Assembly: GCF_900108955.1 (NCBI RefSeq)
Contig: NZ_FNYA01000002.1
Span: 62,001 to 126,000, forward strand
Direction of reading: 5' to 3'
DNA length: 64,000 bases
DNA from: Flavobacterium terrigena
GTDB lineage: Bacteria; Bacteroidota; Bacteroidia; Flavobacteriales; Flavobacteriaceae
Part shown: positions 12,863 through 43,301 of the stretch, one piece after another
How the letters are laid out: every line of letters begins with the position of its first letter
Position numbering within the stretch: position 1 is the first letter of the stretch
Notes under the pieces: model-generated
What the model was told of the DNA's origin: nothing
What the model saw: only the letters and a program-made list of their open reading frames with translations
Databases searched by the model: none
Position numbers and translations under genes: made by a program

Positions 12863-13720
12863 ATGAAAAGAAAAATTTCTAAGAAATGGATTGTCTTCAT
12901 ATTATTTTGTGGCTACTTATTGTTTTCTCAGTCTTGCATGCGAATGCGATTGTCTGTTAAAAAAACGAATGAATTTTTCTCTCAATCCAATACTGCTTTT
13001 AAAGATGACACCTTTAAAATTTCTGAAGCACATCAAATCCATTATATAGAAACGGGCGATTCTTCCAAATCCACACTTTTTTTCTTACACGGTTCACCAT
13101 GAAGTTGGGATGCCTATAAAACTTATTTATCCGACTTAGACTTACAGAAAAAATACCGCTTAATTGCGATTGACAGACCGGGTTTTGGATATAGTAATTT
13201 TGGCGAAGCGGAAGATTTAGAAACACAAGCCAATTTAATTTTACCGTTTATACTATCTAAAAACAACAACCAACCAATTACATTAATTGGGCATTCTATG
13301 GGCGGACCAGTCGCTGTGAAATTGGCGACAAAAAACCCAAAATTATTTAAAAACTTAGTCATTTTATCGGGTGCAATTGACCCAAAAGCAGAAAATCCTG
13401 AAAATTGGCGACCAATTTTACTTTCGAAACCCATTAGATATTTAATTCCAGGCGCATTTAGGATTTCTAATGATGAACTTTGGTGGTTGAAAGAGGATTT
13501 AAAAATTATGAAACCTCAGTTAGGAAAAATCACCTCCAACGTAATTATTATTCATGGTACAGAAGATTCGTTAGTACCTTATTCTAATGTGGGTTTTATG
13601 AAAAAAGAATTTATAAACGCAAAGAATATCGAGACCATTCCAATAGAAAAGGCCGATCATTTTATTCCTTGGACACATTATGAGATTATAAAAAAAAGTT
13701 TATTGAATTTGGAGAATTAA
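12863..13720 (+). pseudogene. Alpha/beta hydrolase interrupted by one in-frame TGA
   Basis: A single reading frame of 286 codons with one internal stop, TGA at 13100-13102. The first part has a lipoprotein-like leader (LFSQSC) and ends FFLHGSP; the second resumes SWDAYKTYLSDL, with IDRPGFGYS, the nucleophile elbow GHSMGG, the acid region IIHGTEDSLVPYS and the base region KADHFIPWTH. Family members read HGSPGSWDAY here, so the TGA most simply derives from GGA (Gly) by one G-to-T change at 13100. No other stop or frameshift is present, so the lesion is recent or a sequencing error. The only downstream ATG (13298) is within the nucleophile elbow and could not give a folded enzyme. Its stop overlaps that of dapF on the opposite strand (13717-13720). 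Confidence 0.85.
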
Positions 13721-14496
13721 ACCTCTAAACTTCCACCAAAAACCAATTCCGCAGGACCAGTTAAAAACACGTTTTTATAGGTATTATTTTCCACATCAAA
13801 ACTAATGGTTAATTTTCCGCCTAAAACATTAATATTAACTCGTTTGGCATCTGTTTTATAAGTCGAATGCATCGCAATTGCTACTCCAGTCGCACCAGTT
13901 CCACAAGAAAAAGTTTCATCTTCTACGCCACGTTCGTAAGTACGAACTGAAAAAGTGTCAGCATCTAATTGTTCTACAAAATTAATGTTGCAACCACTTT
14001 CATCGTATAAATCGGAATATCTTAATTTGGCACCAATATTTTTTACATCAAACTGCTGTATATCTTTCACCATTTGCACGTGATGTGGTGAACCTGTGTA
14101 TACAAATTCGTGCGTGTCAAAATGCTTCACATCCGTCACATCAATCATTTGTAAAGCAATTAAATTATTTTCAATTTTTGCATAATGATAACCATCTGAA
14201 GCTTCAAAATGGGCTTCATTGTCAATTATACCTAATTGTTTTGCAAAAGCTACTAAACAACGTCCGCCATTACCACACATCGTGCTTGTGCTACCATCGG
14301 AATTATAATACACCATTGTAAAATCGTACTTATCATGATTTTCAAGCAATATTAAACCATCGCCACCAATGCCAAAACGTCGGTCGCATAAGAATTCAAT
14401 TAGTTTGGTATTATTTTTGGGAAATGTGTTGTTACGATTATCAATCATAACAAAATCGTTTCCGGTTCCTTGGTATTTGAAAAAATTTATTTGCAT
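13717..14496 (-). CDS. dapF: Diaminopimelate epimerase
   Basis: 259 residues. Converts LL- to meso-diaminopimelate for lysine and peptidoglycan synthesis, in the cytoplasm, without a cofactor. Both catalytic cysteines are present: Cys74 in MCGNGGRC and Cys198 in ETFSCGTGATG; the N-terminus FFKYQGTGNDFVMID and the GCNINFVE segment are also characteristic. The start MQINFFKYQG at 14496 fits the family; a start at 14523 would add nine unconserved residues. The gene converges on the broken hydrolase with overlapping stops and no room for a terminator between them. Confidence 0.97.
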   Translation of the reverse strand: MQINFFKYQGTGNDFVMIDNRNNTFPKNNTKLIEFLCDRRFGIGGDGLILLENHDKYDFTMVYYNSDGSTSTMCGNGGRCLVAFAKQLGIIDNEAHFEASDGYHYAKIENNLIALQMIDVTDVKHFDTHEFVYTGSPHHVQMVKDIQQFDVKNIGAKLRYSDLYDESGCNINFVEQLDADTFSVRTYERGVEDETFSCGTGATGVAIAMHSTYKTDAKRVNINVLGGKLTISFDVENNTYKNVFLTGPAELVFGGSLEV

Positions 14497-14530
14497 AGTA
14501 CAAAGATATTTATTTTTTTGCACAAAATTG

Positions 14531-14640
14531 CATTAGGGATTGCAGCGGCATCCTTTTTTACAAGTTGACTGAAGCTCGCGAAGGTAACTTGTAAAAAAGA
14601 TATAGTGGAAAGCCCGACCTGTAAGGAAATGCCCAAATGC
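14531..14640 (+). ncRNA. Structured non-coding element (flavo-1-like candidate)
   Basis: Within the dapF-htrA gap a 14-bp perfect stem (14553-14566 with 14586-14599, 19-base loop) is flanked by GGGATTGCAGCGGCAT (from 14536) and GATATAGTGGAAAGCCC (to 14615), with GGG able to pair with CCC. From memory, the GGGAT..GCGGCATCC / AAAGATATAGTGG..AGCCC framework around a variable hairpin recurs in flavobacterial intergenic regions and may be the Rfam flavo-1 motif; this identity was not checked. There is no ORF and no T-run after the second arm, so a simple terminator is unlikely. Orientation is assigned from the recalled consensus. Confidence 0.55.
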
Positions 14641-14681
14641 TAAAAAGGTGTTAAACATTGTTAATCGTGCGTTAAACGGAA

Positions 14682-14711
14682 TTTGAATTTTAAAAAACCT
14701 AGTTATATTTA
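14682..14711 (+). promoter_or_regulatory. Promoter of htrA
   Basis: TTTG (14682-14685), 18-base spacer, TATATTTA (14704-14711, 7 of 8 to TAnnTTTG), 20 bases before the ATG at 14732. This fits the flavobacterial -33/-7 pattern. Confidence 0.55.
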
Positions 14712-14731
14712 CATTATAAACAAATTAAAAA

Positions 14732-16129
14732 ATGAACAAAATGAAAAATTTAGGAAGTCTATTTATTGTATCATTAATGAGTGGTGCCGTTACTTTGGGT
14801 GCCTATAAATTCATTGAAAGCAGAAAAAGCGATTCGGATTCATTTATCACAACATCCCCAAATTATGCCAAAGCCGTGAATTATAACGGTGCGGAAAATG
14901 TAGATTTTACAACTGGTGCCGACAAAGCCATTCACAGTGTGGTGCACGTAAAAAATGTTTCGGTACGAACCGTTTATGATCCGTTTGCGAGTTTTTTCTA
15001 CGGGCAAAGTGGTAGTCAGCAACAAGAGCAAATTGGAACGGGTTCTGGAGTAATTGTTTCGGAAGATGGTTACATTGTGACCAATAATCACGTAATTCAG
15101 GATGCAACAGAATTAGAAGTGACATTAAATAACAACAAAGCATACAAAGCCAAATTGATTGGAACCGACAGCAAAATGGATATCGCGTTACTAAAAATTG
15201 ATGCTGATGAAAAATTGCCATTTATAGTTTTTGGAAATTCAGATAATATTAAAGTCGGCGAATGGGTTTTAGCTGTTGGTAATCCATATCAATTGAATTC
15301 TACGGTTACTGCTGGAATTATTTCGGCGAAAGCTAGAAATTTAGATAAAGCAAGTATTCAATCTTTTATACAAACAGATGCAGCTGTAAACCCTGGAAAT
15401 AGTGGTGGTGCATTGGTGAACACAAATGGAGAATTAATTGGAATTAACACGATGATTTCTTCGCCAACAGGAAGTTATGCGGGATATTCTTTCGCAGTTC
15501 CTTCAAACATTACTAAGAAAATCATTGAAGATTTAATGAAATTTGGAAACGTACAACGTGGAATTTTAGGCGTTGAAGGTGGCGAATTAAATGCCGAAGC
15601 TGCTAAAAAATACGGAATTAAACAAACAGAAGGATTTTATGTGAGTAAAGTCAACAGAAATTCTGGAGCAGAAAAAGTAGGAATTGAAAAAGGTGATATT
15701 ATTGTAAAATTAGATGATAAAAACATTGCTTCATCTGCAGAAATGGCAACAGTTATCAACACGAAAAGACCAAATGATATTGTAAAAGTTTCGCTTATTA
15801 GAGATGGAAAAAACATGGCTTTAAATGTGCCGTTAACTAAAAAAGAATTAATTACTTATGAATTTAATGGTATTGAATTTGAAGATTTAGATGCCAACGA
15901 CAAAAAACGTTTCAATTTGAAAAGCGGTATAAAAATCAAAGAAGTAACTAATGCTGATTATGCGGAATATGCGAACGATTTGAAAGGTTCTATTGTAACA
16001 CAAGTTGATAACATGAGAGCAACAGATATGGAAAGCGTTTCGGCGTATTTAGCTAAAAAAGAAGCTACTGAAAAAACAAGATATCAAATCATTGCCAAAA
16101 ACGGTCAAATGTATCGTATCTTTTTATAA
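14732..16129 (+). CDS. htrA: HtrA/Deg-family periplasmic serine protease
   Basis: 465 residues. Degrades or refolds damaged envelope proteins. An N-terminal membrane segment (LGSLFIVSLMSGAVTLGAY) acts as signal or anchor. The trypsin-like domain carries the triad His120 (TNNHVI), Asp150 (DIALLKI) and Ser224 (GNSGGAL), followed by a first PDZ domain (~275-365; RGILGVEGGELN) and a second, less typical PDZ region (~375-465). Length and order match Deg proteases. ATG 14732 follows the promoter directly; a second ATG three codons later is equally possible. A strong hairpin follows at 16157-16196. Confidence 0.95.
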   Translation: MNKMKNLGSLFIVSLMSGAVTLGAYKFIESRKSDSDSFITTSPNYAKAVNYNGAENVDFTTGADKAIHSVVHVKNVSVRTVYDPFASFFYGQSGSQQQEQIGTGSGVIVSEDGYIVTNNHVIQDATELEVTLNNNKAYKAKLIGTDSKMDIALLKIDADEKLPFIVFGNSDNIKVGEWVLAVGNPYQLNSTVTAGIISAKARNLDKASIQSFIQTDAAVNPGNSGGALVNTNGELIGINTMISSPTGSYAGYSFAVPSNITKKIIEDLMKFGNVQRGILGVEGGELNAEAAKKYGIKQTEGFYVSKVNRNSGAEKVGIEKGDIIVKLDDKNIASSAEMATVINTKRPNDIVKVSLIRDGKNMALNVPLTKKELITYEFNGIEFEDLDANDKKRFNLKSGIKIKEVTNADYAEYANDLKGSIVTQVDNMRATDMESVSAYLAKKEATEKTRYQIIAKNGQMYRIFL

Positions 16130-38131: not shown

Positions 38132-40396
38132 TTACGCTTTTCCAGCAGCAATTAAATTTAAAGCTGAACCTGCTACGAACCAACCAATTTGGCTTTCGTT
38201 GTAGGTGTGATTCGCTAAAATAATATCTTTTGTACCATCTGCGTGAACAAGCTCTAAGGTTAAAGGTTTTCCTGGAGAAAATTCTGTTAAATCTAAGAAA
38301 TTGATAGTATCGTCTTCTTTAATTTTTTCGTAATCTGCTTCGTTTGCAAAGGTTAATCCTAACATTCCTTGTTTTTTCAAGTTGGTTTCGTGAATACGAG
38401 CAAACGATTTCACTAACACAGCCACAACTCCTAAGAAACGTGGTTCCATCGCAGCGTGCTCACGTGAAGAACCTTCTCCATAATTGTGATCTCCCACAAC
38501 AATTGAAGGGATTCCGACAGCTTTGTACGCTCTTGCTACTGCAGGAACTTCACCATATTCACCAGTTAATTGATTTTTAACTTTATTAGTAGCTTGATTA
38601 AATGCATTAACAGCACCAATTAACATATTATTGGAAATATTATCTAAATGTCCACGGAAACGTAACCATGGTCCAGCCATAGAAATATGATCAGTTGTGC
38701 ATTTTCCAAACGCTTTAATTAACAACTTCGCACCTTCAATATTTTTCCCGTTCCAAGGTGCAAATGGCGCTAACAATTGTAATCTATCAGAAGTTGGCGA
38801 AACCACAACCTCAACCGAAGAACCATCAGCAGCTGGTGCTTGAAAACCTGCATCTTTCACATCGAAACCTTTAGTTGGTAATTCGTCTCCTTTTGGTGGG
38901 TTTAATTTGATTTCCATACCTGTATCACTCAATAAAGTATCGGTTAATGGATTAAAATCTAATCTTCCAGAAATTGCAATTGCTGCTACCATTTCTGGCG
39001 AGGTTACAAACGCGTGCGTATTTGGATTTCCGTCGGCTCTTTTAGAGAAATTACGGTTAAAAGAGTGAATAATTGTATTTTTCTCACCTTTGTCTGCTCC
39101 TGCTCTATCCCATTGCCCGATACAAGGTCCGCACGCATTGGTAAAGACTTTTGTTCCCATTTTTTCGAAAGTGGCGATAATTCCGTCTCTTTCAATCGTA
39201 TATCTAATTTGTTCAGAACCTGGATTGATTCCGAATTCTGCTTTAGGTGTAATTCCATGTGCTACAGCTTGTTCTACAATAGATGCTGCTCTACTCATAT
39301 CTTCGTAAGAAGAGTTCGTACAAGAACCAATTAAACCCCATTCGACTTTTATAGGCCATCCGTTTTGAGCCGCTTCTTGTTTCATTTTAGAAACTGGCGT
39401 TCCTCTATCTGGTGTGAATGGTCCGTTGATATGTGGTTCTAATTCTGATAAGTTAATTTCAATTAATTGATCGAAATAATTTTCTGGATTGGCATATACT
39501 TCTGCATCACCTGTTAAATAATCCGCCACTTTATCTGCTGCATTTACTACATCTTGACGACCAGTTGCTGCTAAATATCTTCTCATCGAATCATCATAAC
39601 CGAAAGTTGAAGTGGTTGCACCAATTTCTGCACCCATATTACAAATCGTACCTTTTCCTGTACAAGACATTGAAGTGGCGCCTTCACCAAAATATTCTAC
39701 AACTGCTCCAGTTCCACCTTTTACAGTTAAGATATCGGCAACTTTTAAAATGACATCTTTTGGCGAAGTCCAACCGTTTAATTTACCCGTTAATTTTACT
39801 CCGATTAATTTCGGAAATTTCAATTCCCAAGACATTCCAGACATTACATCAACCGCATCAGCACCACCAACTCCTATCGCTAACATACCTAAACCACCAG
39901 CATTTACTGTATGAGAATCGGTACCAATCATCATTCCACCAGGGAAAGCATAATTTTCTAAAACAATTTGATGAATAATTCCTGAACCAGGTTTCCAAAA
40001 CCCAATTCCGTATTTATTGGAAACGGATGAAAGGAAGTCGAAAACTTCTTTAGATTGCTTATTAGCGAAAGCTAAATCTGTTGCAGCGCCTTCTTTGGCT
40101 TGAATTAAGTGATCACAATGCACTGTTGTAGGAACAGCAACTGTTTTTTTACCAGCGTGCATAAATTGCAATAATGCCATTTGTGCTGTTGCATCCTGAC
40201 ACGCTACTCTATCTGGAGCGAAATCCACATAATCTGCACCTCTTTTAAAAGTTTCGGTAGGTGTTTTTTCCCATAAGTGAGAATATAAAATCTTTTCTGT
40301 TAGGGTAAGTGGACGACCAACTAACTCGCGTGCTTTATCTACACGAGCTGCCATATTTGCGTACACTTTTTCAATCATTTCAATATCAAATGCCAT
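38132..40396 (-). CDS. acnA: Aconitate hydratase, mitochondrial-type (AcnA-like)
   Basis: 754 residues. The three [4Fe-4S] cysteine sites are visible as [15 protein letters not shown] and [12 protein letters not shown]; other active-site runs include [31 protein letters not shown], and the C-terminal swivel domain [19 protein letters not shown]. Interconverts citrate and isocitrate in the TCA cycle. Architecture matches the single-chain mitochondrial/AcnA-like enzyme with linker then swivel, and differs from acnB upstream. Transcribed separately: a terminator lies between the two genes. Confidence 0.95.
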
Positions 40397-40468
40397 AAGA
40401 TTTATTTTTTGTGTGTTATTCTATTTTTCAACTTACCAAATTACGAAAATTATAGTTGTCATAAAAGA

Positions 40469-40497
40469 AAAAGCCCGAGTTTATGACTCGGGCTTTT
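40469..40497 (-). terminator. Terminator of acnB
   Basis: AAAAGCCCGAGT (40469-40480), loop TTATG, ACTCGGGCTTTT (40486-40497); 12-bp GC-rich stem followed by T-run on the minus strand. Isolates acnB from acnA. Confidence 0.9.
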
Positions 40498-40523
40498 AAA
40501 TTATATTTCAGTAAATCAATTTA

Positions 40524-43301
40524 TTAGTTTACTAAAAGTTTATGAGAAGGTGCAAATTTAGTTAAGTTGATACCTTCAACAGCAGTTTTATATTCTTCAA
40601 TTGTTGGCGTTCTACCAAGAATAGTTGACAACACTACAACTGGTGTAGAAGAAAGTAATGATTCTCCTTTTTTACCTTCTGTATCTTCTACTACTCTTCC
40701 TTGGAAAAGACGTGTAGAAGTTGCCATAACTGTATCTCCTTTTGAAGCTTTTTCTTGGTTACCCATACATAAATTACATCCTGGACGCTCTAAATACAAC
40801 ATGTTTTCGTATTCTGTACGAGCTGCACCTTTTGGAGCGTTATCGTCAAATTCGAAACCAGAATATCTTTGTAAAACTTCCCAGTCGCCTTCCGCTTTTA
40901 ATTCATCTACGATGTTATATGTTGGTGGTGCTACTACTAATGGCGCGTTAAATTTAACTTCACCATTTTGAGCTTCCACATTTTTAAGCATTTGAGCTAA
41001 GATTTTCATATCTCCTTTGTGAACCATACAAGAACCGATAAATCCTAAATCTACTTTTTTATCACCTCCGTAGAAAGAAAGTGGACGGATTGTATCGTGA
41101 GTATATCTTTTAGAAACGTCTTTGTTATTTACATCTGGATCAGCAATCATTGGTTCTGCAATTAGATCTAAATCTACTTCAACCTCAGCGTAATATTTTG
41201 CATTTGCATCTGGAGTTAAAGCTGGTTTTTCACCTGATTTAATCTCAGCGATTCTCTTATTTGCTTTATTGATTAATCCTTGAAGAACTTGTGTTTTGTT
41301 GTCCATTCCTTTATCAATCATAATTTGGATTCTTCCTTTCGCAATTTCTAAAGATTCTACCAAAGTATCATCTTCAGAAATACAAATTGAAGCTTTTGCT
41401 TTCATTTCAGCCGTCCAATCTGTAAATGTAAAGGCTTGATCCGCAGTAAGCGTTCCTAAATGCACTTCAATAATTCTTCCTTGGAATACATTTTCTCCAC
41501 CAAATTTGTGTAACATTTGCGCTTGAGTAGCGTGAACCACATCACGGAAATCCATGTAACTTGCCATTTGTCCTTTGAAAGTCACTTTTACAGATTCTGG
41601 AATTGGCATTGAAGCTTCTCCTGTAGCAAGAGCTAAAGCAACTGTACCAGAATCGGCACCAAATGCTACACCTTTCGACATTCTTGTATGAGAGTCACCA
41701 CCAATAATGATAGCCCATTCGTCAATTGTAATGTCGTTAAGTACTTTATGAATTACATCCGTCATGGCATGATAAACACCTTTCGGGTCACGAGCTGTAA
41801 TTAATCCGAAGTCGTTCATAAATTTCATCAATTTAGGAATATTAGCTTGCGCTTTTTTATCCCAAACCGAAGCTGTATGACAACCCGATTGATAAGCTCC
41901 ATCAACGATTGGAGAAATAACTGTAGCTGCCATAGATTCTAATTCCTGAGCAGTCATCAATCCTGTTGTATCTTGAGAACCAACGATATTTACTTCAACA
42001 CGAACATCAGAACCAGCGTGTAATGCTTTTTTAGAAATTGTACCTACAGAATTTCTATTGAAGATTTTTTCAACAGCAGTAAGTCCTTGTCCTTCAATTG
42101 AAACTTCTTTTGAAGGTGCATAAACTAGAGGCGCTTCAATCCCTAAAGTTTTAGCAGCAAAAGTTTGAATTTTTTTACCGAAAACAATTGCATAAGAACC
42201 ACCAGCTTTGATGAATTCCATTTTCTGAGGCGTGAATGCTTTAGAAATGTCAATTAATTCTTTGTCTCCGTTATATAATTTTTTTGTTTTTGTATTGATT
42301 GTAAGAACTGTTCCTGTAGCAACAGAATACGTTTCTTCTAAAACTGGATCACCACTTTCATTACGAACTACTTCGCCGTTAGCATCTGTCTTTTTTACCC
42401 AGTTTTTCAAATCTAGACCAATACCACCAGTTACATCAACAGTTGTTAAGAAAATTGGAGAGATTCCGTTTGTTCCTGCAACGATTGGCATAAAGTTTAC
42501 GAATGGCACATATGGACTTGCTTGTTTACCTGTCCAAAGCGCTACGTTATTCACACCTGACATACGAGATGAACCTACACCCATTGTACCTCTTTCTGCA
42601 ATTAACATTACAGATTTATCTGGATGTTGTGCTTGCAAAGCTTTGATTTCGTCTTGAGCTTGAGGTGTAATCATACATTTACCATGCAATTCACGATCTG
42701 AACGTGAGTGTGCTTGATTACCTGGAGAAAGTAAATCTGTTGAGATATCTCCTTCACCAGCGATAAAAGTAACAACTTTAATTTCTTCAGCTACTTCTGG
42801 AAGTTTTGTAAAAAATTCTGCTTTAGCATAACTTTCTAAAATTTCTCTAGCTACTTCATTACCATTTTGAAATGCATCTTTTAAACGATCCATATCAGCA
42901 TCATAAAGATACACTTGAGTTTTAAGAACTTTTGCAGCTTCTTTCGCGATAGCGATATCATTTCCTAAAGCTAAATCAAGTAATACTTCAATTGAAGGAC
43001 CACCTTTCATGTGTGATAATAATTCAAAAGCGAATGCAGGAGTAATTTCATTTACTACAGATTCTCCTAGAATAATTTCCTTTAAGAATTTTGCTTTTTC
43101 ACTAGCTGCACTTGTAGTTCCTGGTAATGTATTGTAAATAAAAAACTTAAGAGAATCTTCTCTATTTTCGTTATTTACATCTTTGATTTGCGCAACGATT
43201 TCGGTTAATAAGTCGGCGCTATCAATTGGTTTTGGATGAAGACCTTGGCCTTTTCGCTCTTCAATTTCTTTGATGTATTCTTTATAAATATTCATTTCCA
43301 T
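40524..43301 (-). CDS. acnB: Aconitate hydratase B (bifunctional 2-methylisocitrate dehydratase type)
   Basis: 925 residues. AcnB organisation: N-terminal HEAT-like domain (IKEIEERKGQGLHPKPI...), swivel domain with GEGDISTDLLSPGNQAHSR and RGTMGVGSSRMSGVNN, then catalytic domains with IIGGDSHTRMSKGVAFGADSG, GFIGSCMVHKGDM and RPGCNLCMGNQEKA holding the cluster cysteines. AcnB works in the TCA cycle and, in some bacteria, the methylcitrate cycle. TAAATTTG on the minus strand at 43359-43366 may be its -7 box. Confidence 0.95.
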   Translation of the reverse strand: MEMNIYKEYIKEIEERKGQGLHPKPIDSADLLTEIVAQIKDVNNENREDSLKFFIYNTLPGTTSAASEKAKFLKEIILGESVVNEITPAFAFELLSHMKGGPSIEVLLDLALGNDIAIAKEAAKVLKTQVYLYDADMDRLKDAFQNGNEVAREILESYAKAEFFTKLPEVAEEIKVVTFIAGEGDISTDLLSPGNQAHSRSDRELHGKCMITPQAQDEIKALQAQHPDKSVMLIAERGTMGVGSSRMSGVNNVALWTGKQASPYVPFVNFMPIVAGTNGISPIFLTTVDVTGGIGLDLKNWVKKTDANGEVVRNESGDPVLEETYSVATGTVLTINTKTKKLYNGDKELIDISKAFTPQKMEFIKAGGSYAIVFGKKIQTFAAKTLGIEAPLVYAPSKEVSIEGQGLTAVEKIFNRNSVGTISKKALHAGSDVRVEVNIVGSQDTTGLMTAQELESMAATVISPIVDGAYQSGCHTASVWDKKAQANIPKLMKFMNDFGLITARDPKGVYHAMTDVIHKVLNDITIDEWAIIIGGDSHTRMSKGVAFGADSGTVALALATGEASMPIPESVKVTFKGQMASYMDFRDVVHATQAQMLHKFGGENVFQGRIIEVHLGTLTADQAFTFTDWTAEMKAKASICISEDDTLVESLEIAKGRIQIMIDKGMDNKTQVLQGLINKANKRIAEIKSGEKPALTPDANAKYYAEVEVDLDLIAEPMIADPDVNNKDVSKRYTHDTIRPLSFYGGDKKVDLGFIGSCMVHKGDMKILAQMLKNVEAQNGEVKFNAPLVVAPPTYNIVDELKAEGDWEVLQRYSGFEFDDNAPKGAARTEYENMLYLERPGCNLCMGNQEKASKGDTVMATSTRLFQGRVVEDTEGKKGESLLSSTPVVVLSTILGRTPTIEEYKTAVEGINLTKFAPSHKLLVN

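Follow-up and report, generated by a model that had tools for sequence, protein, structure and literature searches.

Flavo-1 and related repeat systems

The Flavo-1 motif (RF01705) was described in 2010 by Weinberg et al., and in the accessible text of that paper it is marked "y" as RNA and "n" as cis-regulatory (PMC2864571). The accessible parts of the literature on the motif since 2010, PMC2864571 and PMC9723704 included, give no function for it, in agreement with the first-pass annotation of the DNA considered here, which had called the function undescribed. A description of Flavo-1 as a mobile element was likewise not found, in a search that took in a minority of the subscription papers.

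The copies analyzed here share with the Rfam family the sequence frame, the long imperfect hairpin and the Bacteroidetes range, and the copy in the window (the whole stretch of 64,000 nucleotides of Flavobacterium terrigena DNA that was analyzed) lies above the family threshold. The correspondence is, however, incomplete. Rfam treats Flavo-1 as an sRNA gene of 76 positions, whereas copies of a long-ended form, designated type A, add two features, a stem that closes the element and another variable hairpin; moreover, inner and outer modules are mixed among the copies, as judged by eye, and the copy in the window behaves like inserted DNA.

Like the repeats of the REP/RAYT (Y1/HUH) system, Flavo-1 sequences are intergenic and palindromic, number dozens per genome and form a strand-specific hairpin; in contrast, they have a long conserved frame and a length of about 110 nt, compared with 20-40 nt for most REPs (accessible portions of PMC2817692). 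In addition, the Y1 transposase is missing from the F. terrigena genome itself (G000) and from G004, G029 and G030, copy-rich genomes that carry 36 to 86 copies.

Integron attC sites are bounded by paired end boxes, RYYYAAC and GTTRRRY. Flavo-1 resembles them in its conserved paired ends, unpaired features, highly variable tip and strand-specific fold, but its ends read GCRTTA.../...AAYGCCC on the model strand, which by eye is not the R''/R' order of those boxes. Unlike attC sites, Flavo-1 is dispersed and occurs in copy-rich genomes without an integrase-like gene.

A further comparison is provided by the MITE-like enterobacterial repeats ERIC/RU-1, the name ERIC being the one that we presume to apply. 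These are small, mobile-looking sequences of 100-170 bp in multiple intergenic regions (accessible text of PMC2759123), and Flavo-1 shares this appearance; it differs in sequence and in its hairpin, which at a given site is exchanged as a whole block, a feature that we did not meet in the literature on comparable repeats. With respect to MITEs of DDE transposases, the Flavo-1 ends can pair (P1, see below), and no parent gene was recognized beside the copies.

The Flavo-1 copy in the window

A cmscan search of the 64-kb window placed RF01705 at 14528-14623 on the + strand, with 55.5 bits (E-value 2.4e-9) against a gathering score of 42 bits, and this was the sole match above any Rfam gathering score. 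The alignment runs over model positions 1-76 of 76, untruncated, and covers the full consensus sequence and structure. The covariance model has therefore borne out the guess of the first-pass annotation that the region corresponds to flavo-1. The 14-bp hairpin that it had proposed was also recovered, as a perfect inverted repeat (14553-14566 and 14586-14599, 100% complementary, 19-nt spacing); within 14300-14900 no other inverted repeat of 12 nt or longer was reported. The element itself stood, while the limits of 14531-14640 that had been assigned to it are better placed at 14528-14637. The window copy is a true Flavo-1 and an ordinary member of the family.

Folding energies, which are weak evidence alone, gave a z-score of -1.9 on the + strand (equalled by 9 of 200 shuffles) and of -1.4 on the - strand (20 of 200). 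In the window copy the 14-bp P3 stem is part of the minimum-energy fold, in which the strands of P1 and P2 are paired otherwise, and this disagreement slightly lowers our confidence in the mobile-repeat reading developed below.

Structure of the extended element

Comparison among the copies showed that the Rfam model represents only the middle part of the element. The features of the window copy are as follows.

14528-14637, + strand: whole extended Flavo-1 in its long-ended form, type A (Rfam core 14528-14623; ends judged from other type-A copies)
14530-14534, + strand: P1 5' strand, GCATT, a proposed closing stem outside the Rfam pairing, which would pair with 14628-14632 (covariation)
14536-14538, + strand: P2 5' strand, GGG, which would pair with 14613-14615
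14539-14552, + strand: left conserved frame, ATTGCAGCGGCATC, inner module I (Rfam alignment; same frame in other genomic copies)
14553-14599, + strand: P3, the variable hairpin with a 19-nt loop (arms from the repeat search)
14600-14612, + strand: right conserved frame, ATATAGTGGAAAG (Rfam alignment)
14613-14615, + strand: P2 3' strand, CCC (copy comparison)
14618-14626, + strand: P4, a second variable mini-hairpin, CCT GTA AGG (weaker covariation)
14628-14632, + strand: P1 3' strand, AATGC, followed by CCAAA up to 14637 (copy comparison)

The general order of type-A copies is TTTGCRTTA, P2 5' strand, left frame, P3, right frame, P2 3' strand, GA, P4 and AAYGCCCAAA. Their statistics derive from the 41 copies (40 distinct), out of 195, that fit the end pattern. 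At each position P1 is paired in 39 or 40 of the 40 distinct copies; its pairs 1-2 are fixed through the pattern by which the copies were selected, and pairs 3-5 covary, the observed pairing being reached by 0 of 5000 shuffles (n = 40 distinct copies; kinship ignored). The middle P2 pair and an isolated pair, designated X, gave 0 of 5000 each, and the outer P2 pair covaries more weakly (40 of 5000), again with n = 40 and kinship ignored. Covariation is also weaker for P4 pairs 1-4 (20, 2, 8 and 2868 of 5000 shuffles, kinship ignored). Among other copies P2 occurs as GGG/CCC, GTG/CAC and GCG/CGC, and P4 reaches about 60 nt.

The ends of the element are sharp, with conservation beyond them of 0-0.4 bits (47 left and 41 right ends), and the runs of T and A at the ends are weakly conserved. 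Several pairings of inner module with outer end can be seen by eye among the copies, as though the two had been shuffled at the frame they have in common. L034 and L035, which are compact and whose inner hairpin is short, score under the Rfam cut-off. The P3 tip of the window copy resembles, by eye, those of two other copies in the same genome (L010 and L022). In three further copies (L007, L024 and L026), palindromes like CACTGAGCTTGTCGAAGTG lie inside the Flavo-1 tips, which gives them the look of nested repeats.

Copy number and taxonomic distribution

The first-pass annotation had stated that the framing sequences recur, and in the F. terrigena genome (3.17 Mb, 18 contigs) they do so in 36 Flavo-1 matches at E <= 1e-3, 31 of them above the cut-off, with tips that differ among the copies. 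Four of the 36 are identical and lie near the ends of contigs C2, C7, C15 and C18, so that the number of independent copies is lower than 36. Across the genus, matches were detected in 39 of 41 genomes (own genome included), in 37 above the cut-off; the number per genome ranges from 0 to 86, with G018 and G020 copy-free and four more genomes carrying 1 to 4 matches. None of 14 control genomes gave a match.

A pattern scan of named genomes yielded at least 118 stretches, in which the same frame occupies different sites in many genera. Among the 80 titles listed, nearly all belong to genera that we take to be Flavobacteriales, together with MAGs labelled Bdellovibrio, Bacteroidales and Bacteroidetes. 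Two exact-pattern scans of a viral collection returned seven stretches, two of which are identical in sequence, and all were confirmed by Rfam; one of these Flavo-1-bearing viral contigs encodes a phage minor tail protein and an anti-repressor. A blastn search of phage and plasmid collections with the single copy L002 gave no match.

Hairpin replacement at orthologous sites

The copies of genomes G006 and G015 were compared at the level of individual sites (30 of 40 and 30 of 41 copies, respectively), which provided nine orthologous pairs, supplemented by the L118 site. The main flank pieces of the nine pairs are 81-93% identical, on one side only for some pairs; a further pair (L115/L092, 66% identity) was excluded, and the G015 partner at L118 lies outside the listed model matches. 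In seven of the ten pairs (L071, L074, L080, L082, L091, L104 and L118) P3 was swapped as a block, and L071 and L074 show a switch of the inner frame from module II to module I along with the hairpin. The stem is unchanged in L094 and L102, and L113 differs by one compensatory pair.

At L118, Flavo-1 occupies the same site in G006, G008 and G015. Between G006 and G015, P4 changed in addition to P3, and the G015 tip is, by eye, like that of another G015 copy, L140; in G008 one compensatory P3 pair differs and P4 is new. A site common to three genomes weighs against mobility to the extent that it suits selection for a host function too. Among the other G008 pairs, outside the ten, the hairpin was kept in L080/L083 and differs in L139/L083 and L140/L086.

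Hairpin types recur inside and across species, and identical ones were present at different loci in four of the six genomes compared. A formal comparison of near-identical hairpin sharing within versus between genomes gave no clear excess. Tips may be exchanged by gene conversion, by re-insertion or by another route. Within the F. terrigena genome, L003 and L011 (contigs C17 and C18) have 40 bases of left flank in common and carry different hairpins, and represent a within-genome example of tip replacement.

A palindrome without strand-specific constraint should accumulate G.T and A.C mismatches equally, such that an excess of G.T points to constraint on the fold of the model strand. Isolated P3 mismatches, with Watson-Crick pairs on both flanks, comprised 37 G.T versus 8 A.C in 169 unique hairpins (p 1.5e-5, kinship ignored), and 39 versus 9 under another filter. 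By set, the counts were 10/3 in the own genome, 8/5 in G006, G015 and G008, and 19/0 in the named genomes. For these counts, as for those of gene context below, the copies were those that fit a text pattern, largely from the scan listing at least 118 stretches, with L037-L066 and L141-L260 left out and orthologous copies counted apart. Judged from these mismatches, the fold of the model strand seems to be constrained, as RNA or as single-stranded DNA. As evidence for mobility the bias is tempered on two counts, as a strand-specific fold suits a functional RNA equally and the ratio is just 8 to 5 in G006, G015 and G008.

A probable mobile folding repeat

We favour, with moderate confidence, the reading that Flavo-1 is a folding repeat, dispersed, non-coding and probably mobile, whose tips can be replaced, and that it is not a classical sRNA gene. 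The many copies, their sharp ends, the lack of the element in the dapF-htrA gap of most relatives, the lack of orientation towards genes, the strand specificity of P3 and the block replacement of hairpins form its basis. The + strand would fold with P1 as the closing stem and a long frame stem, P2, ending in the variable P3, together with the second variable hairpin, P4. With the single strand folded, its conserved frame would be recognized by a trans-acting factor, which would also insert new copies between genes; new tips would arise when a copy re-inserts into a frame already in place or through an exchange resembling gene conversion. In the window, the element would have landed between dapF and htrA, which are divergent, and ahead of the likely htrA promoter, so that any effect on htrA would be incidental.

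A more tentative extension, which we consider possible without holding it to be probable, is that Flavo-1 represents a new class of miniature mobile element, in which one folded strand transposes via a recombinase, a transposase or an RNA-templated route that recognizes the conserved frame, and the tips serve as exchangeable cassettes, swapped as blocks while the site stays the same. A part of the covariation captured by Rfam would then stem from the exchange of cassettes and from recognition of the single strand, and not from a cellular regulatory RNA.

Should Flavo-1 be a folded element that moves, rather than an sRNA, dozens of loci would be mislabelled by annotation in many flavobacterial genomes, and a search for regulated target genes would be the wrong experiment. 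The block replacement of tips at fixed sites is unusual, and the family, which behaves like a dispersed mobile folded element with replaceable tips, is more interesting than the window copy itself.

Gene context and transcription

Among 200 copies, 164 had both neighbours, 31 were at locus edges and five were inside mechanical ORFs (four of these under 100 codons). The 164 copies were distributed as 44 tandem sense, 52 tandem antisense, 41 divergent and 27 convergent, with no bias in orientation towards genes; by comparison, among all gaps of 90 nt or more at these loci, as defined by mechanical ORFs, 235 were tandem, 90 divergent and 49 convergent. Replication-strand bias was not evident in two single-contig genomes whose replichore limits were drawn by eye (G010, p 0.44; G036, p 0.65).

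The promoter pattern TTG-N-TAnnTTTG was found upstream of 1 of 193 copies on the + strand and of none on the - strand (downstream, 9 and 2). Conservation upstream is near 0, and the copies share no promoter in front of them of the sort that an sRNA gene would own. An excess of TAnnTTTG on the right flank (35 of 193 versus 9-12) was dropped from consideration, in view of several occurrences at the same orthologous loci and of unequal flank windows. An intrinsic terminator was likewise rejected, as the T-left/A-right arrangement around the stem holds on both strands and no terminator-like site was found at the window copy.

In the accessible text of the F. psychrophilum transcriptome study, Flavo-1 hits seemed indistinctly sense or antisense to transcribed regions, many lie in none, and several 5' transcribed regions coincide with hits (PMC9723704), and our context counts agree with this part of its observations. 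The last point is one of those that would suit a true small RNA or RNA-protein scaffold, one that would owe its transcription to scattered promoters or to read-through and its many copies to its usefulness. The Rfam classification as an sRNA gene, the preference for G.U over A.C among model-strand stem mismatches and the presence of the same frame in many genera (among the titles listed) are also in its favour. We nevertheless regard such an RNA as unlikely, in view of the near absence of the promoter pattern upstream, the lack of a terminator-like site at the window copy and of any orientation bias, the six genus genomes with no match or only 1 to 4, and those F. psychrophilum hits that are without consistent strand or transcription.

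Repeats of this sort may behave neutrally, as general knowledge suggests. Flavo-1 would then be an inert relic, whose frames look conserved merely through gene conversion homogenizing the copies, and the identical hairpins at different loci are compatible with such a history. This appears distinctly improbable, however, as neither the internal covariation nor the predominance of G.T over A.C is expected from pure decay, and the same frame is found at different sites in many genera.

The dapF-htrA locus

The surroundings of the window copy are organized as follows.

13717-14496, - strand: dapF, the divergent neighbour (ORF listed from a GTG at 14523, with the likely ATG at 14496; Pfam DAP_epimerase)
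14682-14712, + strand: likely htrA promoter, TTTG ... TATATTTAC, outside the element and downstream of it (in a stretch that aligns among 18 dapF-htrA gaps)
14732-16129, + strand: htrA/degP-like protease gene, trypsin-like and PDZ (ORF; Pfam Trypsin_2 and PDZ_2)

When the dapF-htrA gap was aligned with those of 17 relatives, the insert was missing in 16 of the 17, and the stretch between insert and htrA aligned in all 18 sequences, with CGTTAA in each. The htrA loci of 18 related genomes were searched with Rfam, and Flavo-1 did not exceed the cut-off in any of them. The window copy seems to have arrived in the lineage of this species. The pair TTTG...TATATTTA between element and htrA fits what we take to be the Bacteroidetes promoter consensus; given its position past the insert, htrA transcription probably starts downstream of the element, which is probably not inside the htrA message. 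The proximity of Flavo-1 to htrA is most likely a coincidence, as the first-pass annotation had allowed. A cis-regulatory htrA leader that senses envelope stress is hardly credible: the element lies on the coding strand and ends about 95 nt before the start codon, but conserved linkage is lacking (0 of 18 relatives), the promoter-like block separates it from the gene and would leave it outside a 5' UTR, and 27 of 164 copies are located between convergent genes.

The corresponding gap in G013 (L045) holds, by eye, a different, compact Flavo-1-like copy that is sub-threshold in Rfam, and the G013 and window copies are possibly two independent arrivals in one intergenic region. Upstream of htrA, a block at 14650-14679 (GTTAAACATTGTTAATCGTGCGTTAAACGG) recurs with variations across the 18 aligned gaps and could be a regulator site.

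Candidate partners of the probable mobile repeat

Several gene families were considered as partners of the probable mobile repeat, and none followed its distribution. The RAYT/REP type was rejected, with no Y1_Tnp (PF01797) match in G000 and a Spearman rho of 0.08 with copy number over 41 genomes. The same holds for a reverse transcriptase, RVT_1 being unmatched in G000 and in copy-rich G001, G003, G013 and G028 (rho 0.24, p 0.13). No genome out of 41 exceeded the TIGR02249 cut-off for an integron integrase; a sub-cut-off, integron-integrase-like recombinase occurs in 23 of 41 (a split set by eye from the best E-values), is unrelated to copy number (U-test p 0.58) and is missing from copy-rich G004, G010, G013, G014, G021 and G036. 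These absences are weaker in the drafts G001, G003, G014, G021 and G028, which are 86-93% complete. Among families beside copies at four or more loci, no mobile gene was recognized, and those recognized were, by eye, housekeeping-like.

A target-site duplication was not established, and the relatives are too distant to place the insertion point to the base. In the empty-site comparison of the L379 region there was little alignment at the copies. At the first copy of L381, G015 and G008 are unaligned over the element but contain about 2 kb of other DNA there, so that no clean empty site is present.

The tyrosine recombinase mentioned above is encoded in the F. terrigena genome at L509:3927-4970 (contig C5, about 39927-40970) and in 22 further genomes of the genus (L510-L531), and has a length of 347 aa in 12 of the 23 loci. 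In many of them it is followed by an imperfect palindrome that ends near TATAnACnAGTT, sometimes near a contig end (by eye), and the loci are possibly integron-like arrays. Flavo-1 is situated at most 100 nt upstream of the recombinase in 3 of the 23 loci (Rfam), and a few others contain degenerate copies that were spotted by eye. Next to the Flavo-1 copy at L118 lies a second repeat family (L118:1317-1464), about 145 bp long, which has dozens of matches in G015 and G008.
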